From an uncultured Flavobacteriaceae bacterium (lineage in GTDB: Bacteria > Bacteroidota > Bacteroidia > Flavobacteriales > Flavobacteriaceae), in assembly GCA_943789305.1 (NCBI GenBank), contig CALSTP010000001.1, positions 1,689,178 through 1,753,177 of the forward strand: 64,000 bases of DNA, given 5' to 3'. Positions within the stretch are counted from its first letter, which is position 1; each line of letters opens with the position of its first letter. Of the stretch, positions 6,367-53,357 are shown piece by piece. The translations under genes and the position numbers were made by a program. The notes below the pieces were generated by a model that did no database searches, was not told the origin of the DNA, and saw only the letters and a program-made list of their open reading frames with translations.

Positions 6367-7062
6367 GTGAATAAAATTATCGTCGAAATATGTTGCAGTT
6401 CTTTGGCATCCGTGTTGAATGCAATAAAAGGAAACGCACACCGAATTGAATTGTGTCAAAACCTTTTAGCGGATGGACTCAGTCCATCATCCAATTTTCT
6501 GAAAGAAGTAACCGCTGTATGCAAACTTCCCATTCATGTTTTGGTGCGACCCCGAGCTGGAAATTTCTTTTACAATTCGGCAGAAATTAAACAAATTGAA
6601 AAGGATATCGAACGTATAAAAAAATTTCCAATCCAAGGAATTGTAATCGGCGCATTAAACAAAGACAACTCTTTAGCAACAGAACTTCTTGACAAGTGGA
6701 AGAAAATGTGTCCAAATTTGGATTTTACTTTCCATCGTGCTTTTGACGTTGTAAAAGATCCTGAAAAAGCAATCCTTCAATTAATCAATTTGGGCTATAA
6801 TCGAGTATTGACCTCCGGAACAGAACCAAAAGCAACTGAGGGGTTGGATTTACTAAAAAAACTAAATTCAAAATACTCAAATCATATAACTCTTATGCCT
6901 GGAGGTGGAGTAAATCATAAAAACGCTCATCAATTCCTTGAGGCTGGATTTAATCAAATTCACTTATCTGCAAAGGATAAAAATGAAAATTTTAGTGGAG
7001 ATCCCGTTTCTAACCTCAACATCATTAAGTCGGTTGTTGAAACTGCTTCTCAATTTGAATAA
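6367..7062 (+). CDS. cutC: CutC family protein
   Basis: A 231-residue TIM-barrel protein of the CutC family, using a GTG start. The characteristic N-terminus IVEICCSSLASVLNAI, then HRIELCQNLLADGLSPS, VLVRPRAGNF, DFTFHRAFDV, RVLTSGTEPKA and MPGGGVN are all present, and the length is typical. CutC was named for copper homeostasis in E. coli, but its biochemical role is unsettled and a metal function should not be assumed. No metal-transport genes are nearby. Confidence 0.92.
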   Translation: MNKIIVEICCSSLASVLNAIKGNAHRIELCQNLLADGLSPSSNFLKEVTAVCKLPIHVLVRPRAGNFFYNSAEIKQIEKDIERIKKFPIQGIVIGALNKDNSLATELLDKWKKMCPNLDFTFHRAFDVVKDPEKAILQLINLGYNRVLTSGTEPKATEGLDLLKKLNSKYSNHITLMPGGGVNHKNAHQFLEAGFNQIHLSAKDKNENFSGDPVSNLNIIKSVVETASQFE

Positions 7063-7202
7063 ATTATATTAAGAGGCAAAAACCATTCCTCAAAGAAATA
7101 TATTTTGGAAGCGAGCGAACTTTTGGTTTAATATTAAATATTTATATTTATTATTAAAATTTAAATCTATTGAATTGTCATTTATAAATTTATATCAAAA
7201 AA

Positions 7203-7511
7203 ATGAAAATAATCTATGTTGATCTTGATGGAGTTGTAGCTGATTTTGACAAAGGAAAAAAAGAACATCCGCTTGGAAATGTGACGCCATATAAGGGAAG
7301 ACCGGACAAATTGCCTGGTGTTTATGAAAATTTAGATTTCAGCGTCTTTTTTGAAAAAAGTTTAAAAATAGGAATGTATATTGTAAGAAAATTTTTATTC
7401 TACTCCATTAAAATCATTACAGGTGTATTTTTCATCAACCTCTATTTGATGTACTCCACACATTTTAGATTCTACCTGAATATTGAGGCAATTCAAACAA
7501 CCATTACTTAG
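7203..7511 (+). pseudogene. N-terminal fragment of a HAD-type 5'(3')-deoxyribonucleotidase
   Basis: Residues 1 to about 50 resemble the N-terminus of small HAD nucleotidases: YVDLDGVVADFDKG holds the DxD catalytic motif and KLPGVYENLDF resembles the cap region. After about residue 52 the reading (FEKSLKIGMYIVRK onward) no longer resembles the family, and the remaining HAD motifs are absent in a 102-codon frame where the family needs about 180. The tail is antisense to a plausible small gene (7395-7526). I read this as a truncated remnant; a short expressed peptide is not excluded. Confidence 0.55.
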
Positions 7512-7526
7512 ACTTAAATTATCCAT
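7395..7526 (-). CDS. 43-residue CxxC/CxxH small protein, possible zinc-binding
   Basis: A 43-codon gene from ATG at 7526 to TAA at 7395. It contains C10-x2-C13, then C23-x2-H26 (KMCGVH), and a further YTC ending at C36, a layout that suggests a small zinc-ribbon-like site. It runs antisense to the non-HAD tail of the 7203-7511 remnant. That fits the HAD remnant having lost its 3' part and its frame running by chance into this gene. I recall similar short cysteine proteins in Flavobacteria but cannot name the family, and function is unknown. Confidence 0.5.
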   Translation of the reverse strand: MDNLSLSNGCLNCLNIQVESKMCGVHQIEVDEKYTCNDFNGVE

Positions 7527-7843
7527 AATTATATATTTTATTCAAACATACAAAAAAAATTACTTAAACAATTGAAATATAAGTATTTATATATAGATTA
7601 AATAAAAATTAGTGTCAACTTTCTGTACTTCATTTTGAAATATAGTTCGCTGTTTTTGGTTTATAACATATTAAATAAGATTTACCAATTTGGATTTGGT
7701 TTGTGCGTTGCAGATATTATTTCAAAAAATTAATTGAAAGATCTTTAGATTCAGCTTCTTTTGTAGATGTTAAAAAATTAAAAATCCTCACTTTTGTAGT
7801 TGCTTTCGATAGAGATTTTTATTAAATTTATTATTTAGCTGTT
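7527..7843. other. 317-bp AT-rich gap without a supported gene
   Basis: No frame here has convincing coding signals. A 48-codon open stretch on plus (7679-7825) lacks an ATG and resembles nothing I recognise. The stretch is probably degraded sequence between two gene remnants and may contain the promoter for the 7844 frame. Confidence 0.5.
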
Positions 7844-8044
7844 ATGGAACTTAATATCTTTGGTAATCCTTTAATATCATGTTGCAACAATCCATTGACC
7901 GGTTACTTAGGAGATGAAATTTATGATTTAATGTCCCATGTTTGGGGAGATGAAGGAAATGAGTCTCTTATGAATCATTTCAGTGAAGAGGTTACAAATA
8001 AAATTCTTCAAGACTCAGGTAAATACCTAGATACAAAGAATTGA
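7844..8044 (+). pseudogene. Short frame with DUF2237-like N-terminus
   Basis: A 66-codon frame. Residues 3-24 (LNIFGNPLISCCNNPLTGYL) resemble the opening of DUF2237 proteins (consensus near N-x-G-x-P-L-x-x-C-x-x-x-P-x-T-G-F). DUF2237 proteins are about 120 residues and continue with a glycine- and cysteine-rich segment that is missing here. The rest (SHVWGDEGNESLMNHF) is unlike them. It could be a truncated gene or an unrelated small protein. It sits beside other remnants, which favours decay. Confidence 0.35.
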
Positions 8045-8153
8045 TTCCAGAGATTAATTTAATGGAATTTATAACACACTTTAATTACTTCTCTTTTCAA
8101 AAATCAGTATAACCTACTGATTCCTATATAATTACATGATATTATTAAAAATA

Positions 8154-8172
8154 GGGAGGGATTCGAACCACC
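8154..8172 (-). other. Possible tRNA 3'-end (T-arm) remnant
   Basis: Read on the minus strand, GGTGGTTCGAATCCCTCCC looks like a tRNA T-arm with loop TTCGAAT followed by a few acceptor bases. No complete tRNA accompanies it, and the T-stem pairing is imperfect. It lies 52 bp downstream of the tRNA-Asp 3' end. Such fragments are left by lost tandem tRNAs or by integration events. Confidence 0.3.
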
Positions 8173-8173
8173 T

Positions 8174-8204
8174 AAAAAAATAACTCCTTGAAAATCAAGG
8201 AGTT
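8174..8204 (-). terminator. Terminator after tRNA-Asp
   Basis: A 10-bp perfect inverted repeat (8182-8191 with 8195-8204, AACTCCTTGA arms, 3-nt loop) followed on the minus strand by seven T residues. It is placed 20 bp past the tRNA-Asp 3' end. Confidence 0.8.
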
Positions 8205-8223
8205 ATAAATTTCGAAGTGGTTG

Positions 8224-8297
8224 CGGTCTGGACGGGACTCGAACCCGCGACCCCCTGCGTGACAGGCAGGTATTCTAACCAGCTGAACTACCAGACC
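8224..8297 (-). tRNA. tRNA-Asp (anticodon GTC)
   Basis: A 74-nt cloverleaf on minus: acceptor GGTCTGG pairs with CCAGACC, discriminator G. The anticodon stem is CCTGC/GCAGG around loop CTGTCAC (anticodon GTC), and the T-arm is GCGGGTTCGAGTCCCGT. CCA is not encoded directly after the discriminator (CAA follows). Confidence 0.96.
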
Positions 8298-8381
8298 TGT
8301 TTGAATGATTGCAAATATACATTGCATTTTTGTTATCTAAAAATAAAAATCCACTAAAAAGGGAAAATTTAAAAAGAAGAT

Positions 8382-8699
8382 TTAAATCAATGCATCAAGT
8401 GCGTCAGCATAAGCTGTTTTTGGAGAAACACCCACTTTACGATCGACGATTTCTCCGTTTTTAAACACCAAAACTGTAGGGATATTTCGAACTCCATATT
8501 TAGCAGCAAATTCTTGATTTGAATCAACATCAAGTTTTCCAACAACTGCCTTTCCTTCAAAATCAGTGCTAATTTCTTCAATTATTGGGCCAACCATACG
8601 GCAAGGGCCACACCATGCTGCCCAAAAGTCAACCAGTACTGGTTTAGTAGATTTTAAAACAATTTCATCGAAGTTTGCATCTGTTATTTCTAAAGCCAT
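8382..8699 (-). CDS. trxA: Thioredoxin
   Basis: A 105-residue thioredoxin starting MALEITDANFDE. It holds the redox motif WCGPC within FWAAWCGPCRMVGP, the family cis-proline segment RNIPTVLVFKNGE, and a normal length. It reduces protein disulfides in the cytoplasm. An ATG seven codons further upstream (8720) is in frame, but a TAnnTTTG box at 8718-8725 would place the transcript start downstream of it, so the ATG at 8699 is preferred. dnaE lies upstream on the same strand. Confidence 0.96.
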   Translation of the reverse strand: MALEITDANFDEIVLKSTKPVLVDFWAAWCGPCRMVGPIIEEISTDFEGKAVVGKLDVDSNQEFAAKYGVRNIPTVLVFKNGEIVDRKVGVSPKTAYADALDALI

Positions 8700-8717
8700 A
8701 ATATTATTTATTTTATA

Positions 8718-8725
8718 CAAATGTA
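8718..8725 (-). promoter_or_regulatory. Probable -7 box of trxA
   Basis: TACATTTG on minus matches the Bacteroidota -7 consensus TAnnTTTG exactly and ends 18 bp before the chosen trxA ATG. No clear -33 TTG was seen. Confidence 0.4.
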
Positions 8726-8787
8726 TCTTTTTTTTTAAGCATAAAATAGTCTCAGCATCTGATTTTCTTATACTTAAATTATTAATC

Positions 8788-11700
8788 TTAATTTAATTGA
8801 TATGGAATCTTTTGTTGCTCTAAAACCGACAGTAATTCATTATTGACTTCAAGGCGTTGTTTTCTACTGGGAAGTGTTAATTTAATTTTCTCCTCGGTAT
8901 CAAAAACATCAACATACAGTGCCTTTTCCCCTTTAAAAGAACTAAAAACCTTTTTGAGTTCACTTACCCTTTCTTCATTAAGCTGTTTTACTTCAAACAT
9001 CAAAGTGATTTTTTTAACATTTGTTTTCAGGGTATCATGAAGCATTTCAAAATTGTTAAATTGAATTCTAGGAGGTCCAAGCTGTCCCGTCTCACGATTC
9101 CTCCAGCCTTCGGCTACTCGAATCCGAAGACGAACAAAATTGTTAGGCAGTATGAAGTGTCTGAACTTTAAATAGTCTTCACCAAAGATTTTGAATTCAT
9201 ACTGGTCAGAAAAATCTTCAATAGAAAATTTGCCCCATCCCTTTCCATTTTTGCTAACTAAATGTTCTACATCATTGATAATTCCACCAAAACTTAAATC
9301 TCTGTTGATTAATGGATCCAGATCATTTAAAACATCAAAGGTTGAAGAAGAAAAATATTTCATCTCCCGTTTGAAATCGTCTAATGGATGGGCAGATATA
9401 TAAATCCCAACAACCGCTTTTTCTTTTTTCAACAACTCCAAAGTTCCCCATGATTCACATTCGGGAATTTTAATTTCTTGAATTTGTTCTTGACTATCAT
9501 CCCCAAACAAATTGGTTTGAGAAGAATTTAAATTTTCTTGATATTTAGCTCCGTATCGGATTGCTTTCTCTAGGAAAATTATTCCATCCCCATCGGGATT
9601 AAAATATTGTGCACGGTGACAGTTTCCAAAAGAATCTAAACCTCCTGCCAAAGTCAAGTTTTCAAGTGCTTTTTTATTTGCAGCTCGTAAATCAATTCTT
9701 TTGGTCAAATCAAAAACAGAGGTATACCTGCTTTCCTCACGATGCTCAATAATGGTCTCTACGGCTCCTCTACCGACTCCTTTTACAGCTCCCATACCAA
9801 AACGAATAGCTTGTTGATTATTTACAGTAAACTTATAAAAGGATTCGTTTACATCGGGCCCAAGTACATTGAGTCCCATCCGGCGACACTCTTCCATAAA
9901 AAAGGTTACTTGTTTGATGTCGCTCATGTTATTTGATAAAACCGCTGCCATGTATTCAGCGGGATAATGTGCTTTTAAATAAGCGGTTTGATACCCAATC
10001 CAAGCGTAGCATGTCGAATGCGATTTATTAAAAGCATAAGAAGCAAACGCTTCCCAATCTTTCCATATTTTTTCTAATTTTTTTGGGTCATGTCCATTGG
10101 CTGTTCCTCCTTCAATGAACTGGGGTTTCAACTTGGCCAGCAGTGCATGTATCTTTTTACCCATTGCCTTACGCAAAACATCTGCTTCACCTTTGGTAAA
10201 ACCTGCAAGTTTTTGAGAAAGTAACATCACTTGCTCTTGATAAACAGTTATCCCATAGGTTTCTTGAAGATATTCCTCCATATCATCCAAATCGTAGGAA
10301 ATTTCTTCTTTTCCATTTTTACGAGCAACAAAACTTGGAATATACTCCAAAGGACCCGGACGATACAAAGCGTTCATTGCTACTAAATCTGCAAAAATAG
10401 TGGGTTTTAAATCCTTTAAATATTTCTGCATCCCGGCAGATTCGTATTGAAAAATCCCAACCGTTTCTCCCCTTTGAAAGAGTTCATAGGTTTTGACATC
10501 ATCTAAAGGGAAAGTATCTGGATCTAAATCTATGTTGTGTTTATATTTAACTAATTTGACGGTGTCTTTGATTAAGGTCAAGGTCTTCAATCCTAAAAAG
10601 TCCATTTTCAACAAGCCCGCGTCTTCTACTACAGAATTATCAAATTGAGTCACAAACAAATCAGAATCTTTCGCAGTTGCAACGGGAACAAAATTGGTGA
10701 TATCATCTGGAGTGATAATTACCCCACAAGCATGAATTCCTGTATTTCGCAAAGAACCTTCCAAAACCTTTGCTTGTTGAATTGTTTCTCCCGACAAACT
10801 TGCTTCTTGTGAGAGTGATAAAAATTCTTTCACTTTTTGGAACTCATCGGCTCTCAAGTTTTTTTGAAGTTCTTTTTCTTCAAGGCCAAAAATCTTTGAC
10901 AGTTTAATGTTTGGTAACATTTTTGAAATTCGATCAGCCTCATTCAATGCTAAATCCAATACGCGTGCAGTGTCACGAATTGAGGATTTTGCAGCCATAG
11001 TTCCGTAGGTTATGATTTGTGCTACCTGATTAGAACCGTATTTGTCGATTACATAATCCATTACCTTTCCACGACCTTCATCATCAAAATCAATATCAAT
11101 ATCCGGCAGACTTACCCGATCGGGATTAAGAAAACGCTCAAAAAGAAGATTGTATTGAATGGGATCCAAATTTACAATCCACAAACAGTATGCAACTACG
11201 GATCCAGCCGCTGAACCCCGGCCGGGTCCAACCGAAACTCCCATATCTCTTGCAGCTGCAATCAAATCTTGAACAATTAAAAAATACCCCGGATAGCCTG
11301 TGTTAGCTATGACACTCAATTCAAAATCAATTCGTTCCGAAATTTCATCGGTCAGTGTACCATACCTTTTTTTAGCACCTTCATAAGTTAAATGACGAAG
11401 AAAATTATTTTCCCCCAGTTTACCATCTGGGTCTTCTTGAACTAAATATTCTTTTGGAATATCGAATTTTGGCAGTAACACTTCTCGTGTCAATTCAAAA
11501 GGCTCTATTTTATCAATCAGGGCTTTGATATTCAAAATCGCCTCAGGCAAATCTTGAAACAAAAGTTTCATTTCTTCGGGGGATTTGATGTAGTATTCTT
11601 GATTAGGGAAGCCATAACGAAAGCCACGTCCTCTTCCTATCGGTGTGGCTTGTTTTTCTCCTTCTTTTAAACAGAGTAGAATGTCATGAGCATTCGCCTC

Positions 11701-50810: not shown

Positions 50811-51015
50811 CTTTAGTTTGATTATATTTACATCATAAAACAAGAAGGATATAAGGTTGATTCTTATATAGAAAGAATAATATTGGATGTTAGATGTAAT
50901 ATATTGATAAACAAATATATTAGAGGTAGAGAGAACTTAAATAATACTTTTAAAAAAAATAGGTTAGGATTTGATATAAAATAACATATTAAAAATATTG
51001 GATTAGGTGTTAATG

Positions 51016-51048
51016 GATAAATCATTTATATGGTTTATCTATTTTTTT
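51016..51048 (+). terminator. Terminator-like hairpin inside the insert
   Basis: GATAAATCA (51016-51024) pairs with TGGTTTATC (51031-51039) with one G-T pair and loop TTTATA, followed by TATTTTTTT. It lies just after the truncated small frame, as if closing its transcript. Confidence 0.5.
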
Positions 51049-51112
51049 GGTATAAAGTGTTGAAATCATAATAAAATAAGTTAATAGATATTAATAAGAG
51101 GTTTTTGTAATA

Positions 51113-51141
51113 TTGTATATGTTTAAAAAATATGATATAAT
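51113..51141 (+). promoter_or_regulatory. Sigma70-like promoter look-alike for the polymerase-like gene
   Basis: TTGTAT (51113-51118) and a perfect TATAAT (51136-51141) are separated by exactly 17 bp. This is the E. coli-type spacing rather than the Bacteroidota TTG-N19-TAnnTTTG. The region is very AT-rich, so chance matches are common. Confidence 0.35.
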
Positions 51142-51205
51142 ATAAAACTTATAATAAATAATATACTATTTATAAATAATAATATTAATAATCAGTAGTT
51201 TAATA

Positions 51206-52762
51206 ATGATAAAAAATAAGAAATCCGTATATGAGTTTGAATGTTTTGATTTAGATGATATAGAAGGATTGTATGGTAAGTTTAGAAAATATGGAGTTGG
51301 TAAGTTTTTAGATTTGGTTTATAGGAAAACTATAAGGAAGATGAGTTTTGAGAAAGATGGAGATTTACTGAATAATGAAGGGTTTGTATATGTTAGTAAA
51401 AGTGATATTGAAAGGTATTTAGGTAATGGGAAAGATAAGGATGGTCAATACTATTGGTGGAAGATATTAAAGAGTTTAAGTAAAAGAAAAATCATAAAAT
51501 ATAGGAGAGGTGGATTAAATAAGTTTGACTCTAATAAGATGTTGTGGTTTATAAAAATAAGTGATGAGTTATTTAATAGTGTAAAAACTAAAAGAGAAAT
51601 AGAGGATAAAAACCTAATAAAGTGGTTGAATAAAAAGAATGGTGAGAAAGTTGAAAAGTGGTTAGGTGTAAAGACTATTGGAGATAAGAAAAAGGGTAAT
51701 TGGTTAGTTGGTTATGAGTTGAATGTTTGTAAAAGAAGTAGTATTGAAATAGATGATTTAGAAGGTGTTATTGGCTATAGAATCAGTAATAAAATAAGTG
51801 AGTTAGAAGATAAAAGTAAATGGTTATGGTTAAGTAAAAAAAAGAAAGAAAATATTTTAGAGAAGTTAATAGATAAGAATAAATGGGTTGATGGATTAAA
51901 GGTAGAATACAGAAAGAAATATGAAGTGTTATTGGAGGATTTAGAATATTTGAAGAATGGAGAATATTATGAGTTGAGTGATGATTATTTTAAGAGAGAT
52001 AAGTTTGGTGGTAGAATCTATAATGTCTTTAGTAATACTATTAGAGAATATAGAAAATATATTAAGATTGATGGTAAAGAGTTAGTTGAGATAGATTTGA
52101 AGAATAGTATGATTTGTCAGTTATTCTATATGGTTAAACTATTATTAAAGGGTAGTCAGTTTGAGAGAAATACTATTTTAAATAATGTTTATTGGGAGTT
52201 AGATAAACTAAATAAAGGGTATAAGAATGATGATGATAGAAATCTAAGATTAGGATTGTTGTATTTGAATAGATGGGATTATATTTTGAATGTAGAGAAT
52301 AATCTAAATAAGGATTATTATAACTTCTTAGTGGAAGAGTTTAGATTAAGTAGTGGTGTCAGTATTAGTAGGAATAGTTTTAAAGAGTTATTATTTGTTA
52401 TACTATTTGGTAGTGAGAAAAAGTTGAGGAGTATGAGATTAGGAAATAATAAGTATAGTGATTTAGAGAGTTTATTATTAGGAGATGGTAAGTTTTTGGT
52501 AAGGGATTTGAAGAAAATAAGTTTATTTAGTTGGTATAAGAGTAGAGATTATAAAAAATATAAGAATGTCAGTCTAATATTGATGAGATTGGAAAGAAGT
52601 TTAATGGATGTTATGTCTAATATTATGATTAAAAATGGATTTGATTACATCAGTTTATTTGATGGATTTATGGTTAAGAAAAGTGAAGTAAAGGAAATAG
52701 AAAGAATATTGAATGGTAGATTGGGAAATATAGATAAGGTATTCAGATTGGTGGTAAAGTAA
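51206..52762 (+). CDS. Family-A/T7-like polymerase-fold protein of a foreign element
   Basis: A 518-residue protein. Residues 1-110 look like a winged-helix region (VYVSKSDIERYLG, WWKILKSLSKRKIIKYRR). Motif A is VEIDLKNSM with Asp297; motif B is R389-NSF-K393-ELL-F397-VIL-F401-G402, exactly the O-helix spacing of Pol I (R754, K758, F762, Y766); motif C is ISLFDGFMV with Asp486. Met302 sits where Pol I has its steric-gate Glu710. Whether it makes DNA or RNA cannot be told. No exonuclease domain, transposase or helicase is seen. Codon use is alien to the genome. A replication or primer-making role is a guess. Confidence 0.6.
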   Translation: MIKNKKSVYEFECFDLDDIEGLYGKFRKYGVGKFLDLVYRKTIRKMSFEKDGDLLNNEGFVYVSKSDIERYLGNGKDKDGQYYWWKILKSLSKRKIIKYRRGGLNKFDSNKMLWFIKISDELFNSVKTKREIEDKNLIKWLNKKNGEKVEKWLGVKTIGDKKKGNWLVGYELNVCKRSSIEIDDLEGVIGYRISNKISELEDKSKWLWLSKKKKENILEKLIDKNKWVDGLKVEYRKKYEVLLEDLEYLKNGEYYELSDDYFKRDKFGGRIYNVFSNTIREYRKYIKIDGKELVEIDLKNSMICQLFYMVKLLLKGSQFERNTILNNVYWELDKLNKGYKNDDDRNLRLGLLYLNRWDYILNVENNLNKDYYNFLVEEFRLSSGVSISRNSFKELLFVILFGSEKKLRSMRLGNNKYSDLESLLLGDGKFLVRDLKKISLFSWYKSRDYKKYKNVSLILMRLERSLMDVMSNIMIKNGFDYISLFDGFMVKKSEVKEIERILNGRLGNIDKVFRLVVK

Positions 52763-52800
52763 ATATTTATAACAAAACATAATATGTTAAGAAAGGATTT

Positions 52801-52938
52801 GTGAAAAATGACCAAAATAAAGATTTTAAGTTGAAAATAGTTGTCAGTAAAATAGAAAAGGATAGATTTGTGAGTGATTGGATTAAATGTCAAAATAACT
52901 TTTCTATAAAAAATAATCATATATGTATACTCTTTTAA
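52801..52938 (+). CDS. 45-residue small frame at the right end of the insert
   Basis: A GTG-started frame (45 residues) whose codons match the insert style until about 52920, then run into the flanking gene start (ATG 52923) out of frame. AAGGA lies immediately before the GTG with very short spacing. It may be the truncated 5' part of an element gene cut by the junction. Charged and helical; no family recognised. Confidence 0.3.
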   Translation: MKNDQNKDFKLKIVVSKIEKDRFVSDWIKCQNNFSIKNNHICILF

Positions 52939-53357
52939 AAACCGCTCACTCCTATTGGGCTTTCGCAGTTTTAATACTTTTATTTTTTGCAATTGCTAAC
53001 GCTTTTATCGGCATTGCAAAAAAGAAAACATTTGATTCCTCTGACTTTAGACGCTCATTGTTTGTTCTGATAAGCTCTCATATTCAATTCTTGATTGGAT
53101 TAATTCTTTATTTTGTTTCGCCTTGGTTCGGGAAATGGAGTGCATTAGGCATGGGAGTAATGAAAGATTCTCAAGCACGCTTGTATCTTGTAGAACATCC
53201 CATTACCAATCTAATAGCAATTGTGCTGATTACCATGGGTTGGTCGATGCACAAAAGACAATCGTTAGATGTTAAGAAGTTTTCAAGAATTGGAATATTC
53301 TATTTTCTAGGACTCTTACTATTGTTATCAAGAATTCCTTGGAATACTTGGTTGTAA
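52923..53357 (+). CDS. Four-TM conserved membrane protein
   Basis: A 144-residue protein with four hydrophobic segments (about residues 12-31, 49-66, 92-108 and 122-138). The opening MYTLLKTAHSYWAFAVL and the conserved histidine-bearing SSHIQFLIGLILYFVSP and EHPITNLIAIVLITMG are flavobacterial features. Homologues are often labelled cytochrome b-like, and the His residues could bind haem, but that is not shown. Its ATG follows the C-poor insert immediately. gpsA follows after 40 bp. Confidence 0.75.
   Translation: MYTLLKTAHSYWAFAVLILLFFAIANAFIGIAKKKTFDSSDFRRSLFVLISSHIQFLIGLILYFVSPWFGKWSALGMGVMKDSQARLYLVEHPITNLIAIVLITMGWSMHKRQSLDVKKFSRIGIFYFLGLLLLLSRIPWNTWL

Follow-up and report, generated by a model that had tools for sequence, protein, structure and literature searches.

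Self-synthesizing integrative elements carry their own polymerase. In pipolins this is a family-B enzyme, piPolB, and they often contain recombinases, an excisionase-like gene and restriction-modification genes as well (PMC7385651). Among phages, the divPolA2 proteins have been described as short (430 aa in the reference), with a PolA-like palm and their own N-terminal domain, as lacking a 3' exonuclease, and as similar to both DNA polymerases and mitochondrial RNA polymerase (PMC11348598).

The window analysed here is a stretch of 64,000 nucleotides from an uncultured Flavobacteriaceae bacterium (contig CALSTP010000001.1). It contains an insert with one gene, whose product P0001 belongs to a polymerase family for which divPolA2 (PHROG 4756; PMC11348598) is the nearest named group found. 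The family shares with divPolA2 the properties listed above; unlike divPolA2, its genes occur in integrative elements as well as in other phages, and its motif A is mostly of the DIKNSQP type. With Pol I (family A) it shares the order of motifs A, B and C and the fold predicted for one family member, but there is no PF00476 match for P0001 or exonuclease domain found in the family, and Gln or Met instead of Glu stands at the presumed steric-gate site. The R-x3-K-x7-F/Y-G helix and this predicted fold are likewise shared with T7 and mitochondrial single-subunit RNA polymerases, as is a DxxGR-like motif; unlike T7 RNA polymerase (883 aa), P0001 has only 518 aa, and the family profile has no detectable match to the T7 enzyme. 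The elements of the family resemble pipolins in being integrative, in carrying their own polymerase and in their recombinases, excisionase-like genes and restriction-modification genes, so that by analogy they look like pipolins with the polymerase family swapped. Unlike pipolins, they have a PolA-like polymerase and tyrosine or serine recombinases, some of them are depleted in cytosine, and the insert in the window holds no recombinase, though the elements of its relatives do. Searches of one open-access library, judged by title and start of abstract, returned nothing on cytosine-depleted or PolA-based self-synthesizing elements.

Our main reading, to which we give a probability of about 0.6, is that a family of polymerase-carrying integrative elements, which would be copied via an exposed strand, gave rise to the insert as a single-gene derivative that has been mobile recently.

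A recently mobile insert under purifying selection

The insert comprises the following parts.

50849-50850 / 52923-52924, flanking the insert: possible 2-bp direct repeat AT, by inspection
50850..50868, no strand: left-terminal hairpin of the insert, TATAAG-N7-CTTATA, shared by the G006 copy (sequence, alignment and fold)
50851..52922, plus strand: mobile insert of ~2,072 bp with a cytosine-depleted plus strand (empty/occupied site comparison and skew profile)
51206..52762, plus strand: polymerase gene encoding no Ala, Pro or His (open reading frame, profile match, composition, dN/dS between two copies)
52763..52922, plus strand: 3' non-coding end, rearranged between copies (77.6% identity plus gaps)

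The ends of the insert and the AT duplication were judged by eye and could lie a few bases away. All 19 genomes of the genus have the right-hand neighbour gene, and in 17 of them the site is empty, with an aldehyde dehydrogenase (ALDH) gene adjoining that neighbour at a distance of a few tens of bases. The two occupied genomes, that of the window (G000) and G006, carry the insert at the same base, while in the tree of the flanks G000 pairs with the empty G001 and G006 with the empty G016. Between the two occupied genomes, dS is 0.214 for the polymerase gene and 0.634, 0.697, 0.826 and 0.963 for four flanking genes. Suppressed pyrimidine changes (see below) should lower the dS of the polymerase gene somewhat; nonetheless, third-position transversions are also fewer, at 14/518 in the polymerase gene vs 54/512 in ALDH (p = 2.6e-7). 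At this shared insertion point the two gene copies are less diverged than their flanks, which marks the insert as recent and mobile. Both lineages probably received the element after their split, at the same precise site, and two separate insertions cannot be told from an exchange. The polymerase gene is under purifying selection, as dN/dS between the two copies is 0.148, and the reading frame is intact in both.

The first-pass annotation, made from sequence alone, had placed the gene alone in a foreign segment, which the 17 empty sites bear out. Its guess that the segment is mobile also held, and is refined below, where the segment looks like a reduced version of a larger element with recombinases; the extreme GC skew and the absent amino acids had been missed. 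No other open reading frame of at least 60 aa lies wholly inside the insert, and hence no recombinase does. The lack of a recombinase, the single gene and the 3' end rearranged between copies could suggest a dead relic or a domesticated host gene. This is very unlikely given the dN/dS of 0.148, the reading frame intact in both copies, and the occurrence in only 2 of the 19 genus genomes.

Several smaller features of the locus were also recorded. Folding of the whole 356-base 5' non-coding region gave nothing more stable than shuffles (z = -0.55), and a 12-base word common to the two upstream regions is at chance level (a word of at least 12 bases in 107/500 shuffles). A hairpin followed by a T-run, resembling a terminator, lies at 51014-51047 and has a counterpart in the G006 copy. 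At the right end, both copies have a possible small open reading frame (KIxVSKxEKDRFV...IKNNHIC; 52763-52940 and L006:6555-6850) that extends into the flank, and in G006 a further acidic one of ~40 aa precedes it. On the left side, immediately outside the insert, positions 50820 and 50848 show C-to-G differences in G000, with C in G001, G016 and G006. Elsewhere in the genome of the window, two serine recombinase genes (G000:C1:1590891-1593495) could act in trans.

A divergent polymerase of the Pol I/T7 RNA polymerase superfamily

The open reading frame at 51206-52762 (plus strand) encodes 518 aa without interruption. The features of its product, all on the plus strand, are these.

51377..51565, plus strand: probable winged-helix DNA-binding domain, residues ~58-120 (order of the L121 model aligned to P0001)
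51998..52015, plus strand: DKFGGR, residues 265-270, with invariant R270 (74/74; weak-score alignment with TGRLHT of the Pol I L065)
52094..52096, plus strand: motif A Asp297 (74/74 aligned sequences)
52370..52411, plus strand: O-helix-like R389-x3-K393-x3-F397-x3-F401-G402 (conservation; weak-score alignment with the O-helix of L065)
52592..52594, plus strand: invariant Glu463 in the helix preceding motif C (74/74)
52661..52663, plus strand: motif C Asp486, with Phe here where 71/74 have His just before (74-sequence alignment)

Annotation libraries gave little help with this protein. P0001 had nothing above cut-off in Pfam, NCBIfam or PADLOC, no Pfam family even at E 10, including the family-A DNA polymerase model PF00476; with PHROG 4756 its match was marginal (E 0.048). 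Rfam gave nothing. Twenty relatives compared with Pfam, and ten with NCBIfam, likewise failed to reach any family's cut-off. Some relatives do match PHROG 4756 (5e-9 and 1.7e-7), to which the divPolA2 reference AUR84708 matches at 1.8e-91.

Membership of P0001 in the family is beyond chance. A profile of 72 relatives, built with P0001 and its 93%-identical copy left out, scores P0001 at 65.1 bits (E 1.3e-19), and the best of 500 shuffles reaches 3.1 bits. The family alignment holds 74 non-redundant sequences from 99 collected, and R270, D297, K393, E463 and D486 are invariant in all of them. Residue 389 is Arg in 54 and Lys in 16, residue 401 is Phe in 59 and Tyr in 11 (70/74 together), and S301 is present in 70. 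Most members also have Gln (65) and Pro (68) after motif A and His (71) before motif C; P0001, which has M302, I303 and F485 instead, lacks these features, which are those of a majority and not invariant. In P0001, motif A is EIDLKNSM with D297 and the following M302, the O-helix-like stretch reads R389-N-S-F-K393-E-L-L-F397-V-I-L-F401-G402, and D486 lies within ISLFDGF. The R270 site we take to be the position of the DX2GR/TGR motif of T7 RNA polymerase and Pol I, and position 302 the steric gate, which is Glu in Pol I. Since this position is Gln in 65/74 family sequences and Met in P0001, sugar choice cannot be read from the sequence.

The similarity to known polymerases is remote and concerns the core. 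The AlphaFold model of P0001 as a single sequence was poor (pLDDT 36) and was not used, so the evidence on fold rests on a phage relative, L121, which is 19% identical to P0001 and was modelled with 50 sequences at a mean pLDDT of 92.0 and pTM of 0.86. In Foldseek searches of PDB this model had 791 matches at E up to 10, only one of them at or below 0.001 (best E 6e-4). Among the 50 listed, 49 are family-A DNA polymerases or single-subunit RNA polymerases and the remaining one is a DRT9 complex; query TM-scores of 0.11-0.44 are modest, so that the predicted resemblance is a remote one. The N-terminus of the L121 model has a strand-helix-helix-strand-strand order, and a similar order appears at low confidence in the single-sequence model of P0001. 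A winged helix is thus the likely identity of this domain, as read from the secondary structure of a model.

At the sequence level, the family profile scores only 1.6-7.0 bits against ten Pol I of related bacteria. For L065, a Pol I of the same order (from G095) and the only one of the ten whose full three-part alignment was inspected, TGRLHTTF fell on the R270 region, REQRSNAKAVNFGLIYG on the O-helix and LQVHDELVF on motif C, that is, three parts in the right order at a weak score. With hhalign against the ten, motif C was in register, again weakly (E 0.007, probability 5.5%). Profiles searched against PDB sequences gave motif C of Pol theta as the sole polymerase match, which is not significant (E 1.5), and T7 RNA polymerase scored -0.5 bits with the family profile, which is no detectable match.

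Instead of a DNA polymerase, the protein could be an RNA polymerase transcribing the element or a primase priming it. This remains possible: mitochondrial RNA polymerase appears in Foldseek at probability 1.00 beside DNA polymerases, the presumed steric-gate site is Met here and Gln in 65/74 rather than Glu, and the authors of divPolA2 raise the same option for their proteins (PMC11348598). Against it, the top eight PDB matches of L121 are DNA polymerases, the best match in BFVD is named 'Putative DNA polymerase I', and no promoter-specificity domain was recognised, without a dedicated test. We conclude by homology that P0001 is very probably a divergent polymerase of the Pol I/T7 RNA polymerase superfamily, with polymerase activity inferred and DNA and RNA not decidable.

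This agrees with the first-pass annotation, which had proposed such a polymerase, not clearly DNA- or RNA-specific, and had named R389, K393, F397, F401, G402, D297, M302 and D486, all correctly placed. Of the two ways in which it could have failed, conservation came out in its favour, with D297, K393 and D486 in 74/74 and Arg or Lys at 389 in 70/74; the fold speaks for it only through the palm/fingers prediction for L121, not through the badly modelled P0001.

Distribution and neighbourhoods of the family

The polymerase family is found in Bacteroidota elements and in large phages. A first search of 149 relatives gave P0001 itself, the 93%-identical copy and three weak partial matches, and a profile from these five sequences matched in 27/299 genomes of the taxonomic family. 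The phylum-level sample contained the polymerase family in 15/395 genomes, and one sub-group led to 73 loci in IMG/VR. Members also occur in six uncultured phages of 595-735 kb in the annotated-phage collection and on one Hymenobacter plasmid in the plasmid collection; P0001 as the query had found nothing significant in these two collections. The reading frames seen are about 370-600 aa long. The family is common in large-phage contigs (L066-L138, up to 476 kb). Two neighbour gene families each recur in 29/48 phage loci with no PHROG at E 0.001 (one representative each), and a third, in 28/48, is glycosyltransferase-like.

Twenty neighbourhoods were chosen by hand from the hits, with Pfam names taken from one representative per gene family. 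A tyrosine integrase homologue is present in 11 of them and a homologue of an excisionase-like HTH_17 gene in 12, of which one is weak; 5 have homologues of serine recombinases, and 4 have one of a type I restriction subunit. In 8/20, an integrase, an HTH_17-like gene and the polymerase follow in that order on one strand, and 4/20, including the G006 copy, have no recombinase. The type I restriction subunit genes beside family members (L145, L154, L161 and L162) may be defence cargo. Within the genus of the window, L144 (G012) has a family member with a ParB_N/N6-N4 methylase fusion before it and a large serine recombinase after it, and L143 (G017) is a 4.9-kb contig with the polymerase, a serine resolvase and a MerR-like gene. 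That L143 is a small plasmid was not shown, as no terminal overlap was found, and is still possible. A role as plasmid Rep is weakened, because the complete Hymenobacter plasmid that carries a relative also has a protein of its own annotated for replication initiation, so that the polymerase need not be a replication initiator.

A fuller relative element

A wider search matched 2/397 genomes, including G1063 of a different genus. The G1063 polymerase is full-length, 27-29% identical to P0001, and keeps the five invariant residues and R389. Its locus, L201, contains an element of ~7.7 kb beside tRNA-Met, with bounds set by skew. The backbone consists of seven depleted genes on one strand (skew 0.91-1.0), which are, by Pfam, a large serine recombinase, an HTH_17 gene, a serine resolvase, three small open reading frames and the polymerase. 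The polymerase gene has 7 C per 1,566 bases, the HTH_17 gene and two of the small open reading frames (62, 88 and 74 aa; L201:3406-10835) have none in 672 bases, and the intergenic gaps have 0-2.1%. A MvaI/BcnI-type endonuclease and a methylase in the same element have 7-9% C on their own coding strands and are likely to be cargo. As genes and gaps alike are depleted and the cargo far less so, the depletion belongs to the element backbone and not to one gene. Motif C of the G1063 polymerase is YDG, as would be expected if His codons lose C. By comparison, the single-gene insert in the window looks like what remains of a larger element that carried recombinases.

No further depleted copies were found among 281 relatives of G1063, and the G1063 protein and a three-row profile gave no further copy in viral contigs, plasmids or phages. 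Searches over 1,522 genome slots (overlapping draws) gave only three copies of the depleted branch. Elsewhere in the family, skew reaches at most 0.40 in 25 cellular loci (in the split copy L019), ranges from -0.06 to 0.32 in 73 viral loci, and is at most 0.37 in further neighbourhoods. As skew is ordinary in most members of the family, possession of the polymerase is not in itself enough to cause depletion, and within what was sampled the depletion is confined to this branch. In two viral loci, 1-kb windows away from the polymerase gene have skews of 0.51 (L071:1301-2300) and 0.56 (L078:1701-2700).

Cytosine depletion and its possible causes

The coding strand of the polymerase gene in the window has base fractions of A 0.404, C 0.024, G 0.239 and T 0.333, and the non-coding parts of the insert have 3.1% and 5.8% C. 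GC skew in the gene is 0.82 over 1 kb, compared with a host background of mean 0.011, sd 0.095 and extremes -0.32/+0.29 (3,820 windows over 400 kb of the same genome). Ala, Pro and His are wholly absent from P0001 and its 93% copy, leaving 17 amino-acid types; among 332 open reading frames of at least 150 aa from a genome sample and the window, the next lowest share of these three is 3.1%. At positions where Pro or His is common in the family, P0001 has Ile303 (Pro in 68/74), Leu425 (Pro in 69) and Phe485 (His in 71), while the Asp, Lys, Arg and Glu of the active site, whose codons can do without C, are retained.

At two-fold sites, C falls to 9/170 in the gene vs 142/644 in seven host genes (p = 6e-8), and G rises to 87/207 vs 172/758 (p = 8e-8). 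At four-fold sites, G is not enriched (7/81, p = 1.0) and the drop in C is not significant (5/81, p = 0.11), a result that misfits a simple model of uniform single-strand deamination. Third-position transitions between the copies are 6 C/T to 29 A/G, vs 42 to 43 in ALDH (p = 0.001).

The composition could have been inherited whole from an unsampled strand-biased donor replicon and now be static in the chromosome. The small number of depleted-branch copies (three in the 1,522 overlapping genome slots) and the far weaker depletion of the restriction-modification cargo in G1063 agree with this. It is nevertheless unlikely, since symmetric mutation after divergence would have left more pyrimidine transitions between the copies (6:29 vs 42:43), and the copies are younger than the split of the flanks, so that both seem to come from a still-depleted pool.

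It is also possible that selection, and not mutation, is responsible, in that avoidance of C on one strand would keep a cytidine deaminase, or a defence that recognises C, from attacking a stage of single-stranded DNA or RNA. In support of this, hardly any of the remaining C stands before a G: CG dinucleotides number 1, 2 and 0 in the elements of the window, G006 and G1063 (50851-52918; L006:4593-6800; L201:3461-5055 and 6900-11060), that is, 3 in ~10 kb vs ~37 expected from the share of T preceding G. Protein composition is also bent further than four-fold sites. Against it, the non-coding parts are depleted too, no deaminase came to light, without a dedicated search, and a targeted defence would, by inference, be expected to select on motifs and not on nearly every C. 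The near absence of CG and the four-fold sites leave an additional effect of context or selection possible. C after G is also rare in the window and G006 elements and not in L201, which is unexplained.

Proposed replication cycle

In our main reading, an element copied via an exposed strand, the winged helix would bind the element's own DNA, and the palm would copy that DNA after excision, replication function, activity and excision all being inferred. Integration may rely on a recombinase supplied in trans. During copying the coding strand is presumed to stay single for long, and exposed C would gradually deaminate to T, leaving almost no cytosine; both the single-strand forms and this cause are inferred. 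In mitochondria, C-to-T changes accumulate on one exposed DNA strand, which is also copied by a family-A enzyme. The inferred deamination draws support from the depletion of non-coding parts, the same-strand backbone, the few C/T changes and the less depleted cargo.

Independently of this mechanism, the data show that P0001 belongs to the family and keeps its catalytic residues, that the gene is under purifying selection, that the empty sites are precise and the arrival recent, and that a fuller relative exists. Against the main reading stand an insert without a recombinase, untested polymerase activity, a good model only from the 19%-identical L121, the four-fold sites, the ordinary skew of most family members, and a plasmid with its own replication initiation protein. 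A bolder reading would be that these are a new class of mobile elements, which replicate or transfer via a long-lived single coding strand copied by their own PolA-like enzyme and which shed cytosine as a consequence, to zero in some genes, with loss of Ala, Pro and His. Taken jointly, these claims fall a little short of even odds in our judgement.

Implications

The locus presents a polymerase of the Pol I/T7 RNA polymerase superfamily in a setting like that of the family-B enzymes of self-synthesizing elements, and a polymerase family that escapes the annotation libraries that were tried. More broadly, the analysis uncovers a branch of such polymerase-carrying elements in which cytosine is nearly abolished on one strand. 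This cytosine-starved branch is a natural experiment, with an enzyme of 17 amino-acid types, without Ala, Pro or His, still kept intact by selection. With it one can test how a mutational or selective force that acts on a single strand can remove one base from that strand of a living replicon, and whether such elements go through a single-stranded stage.
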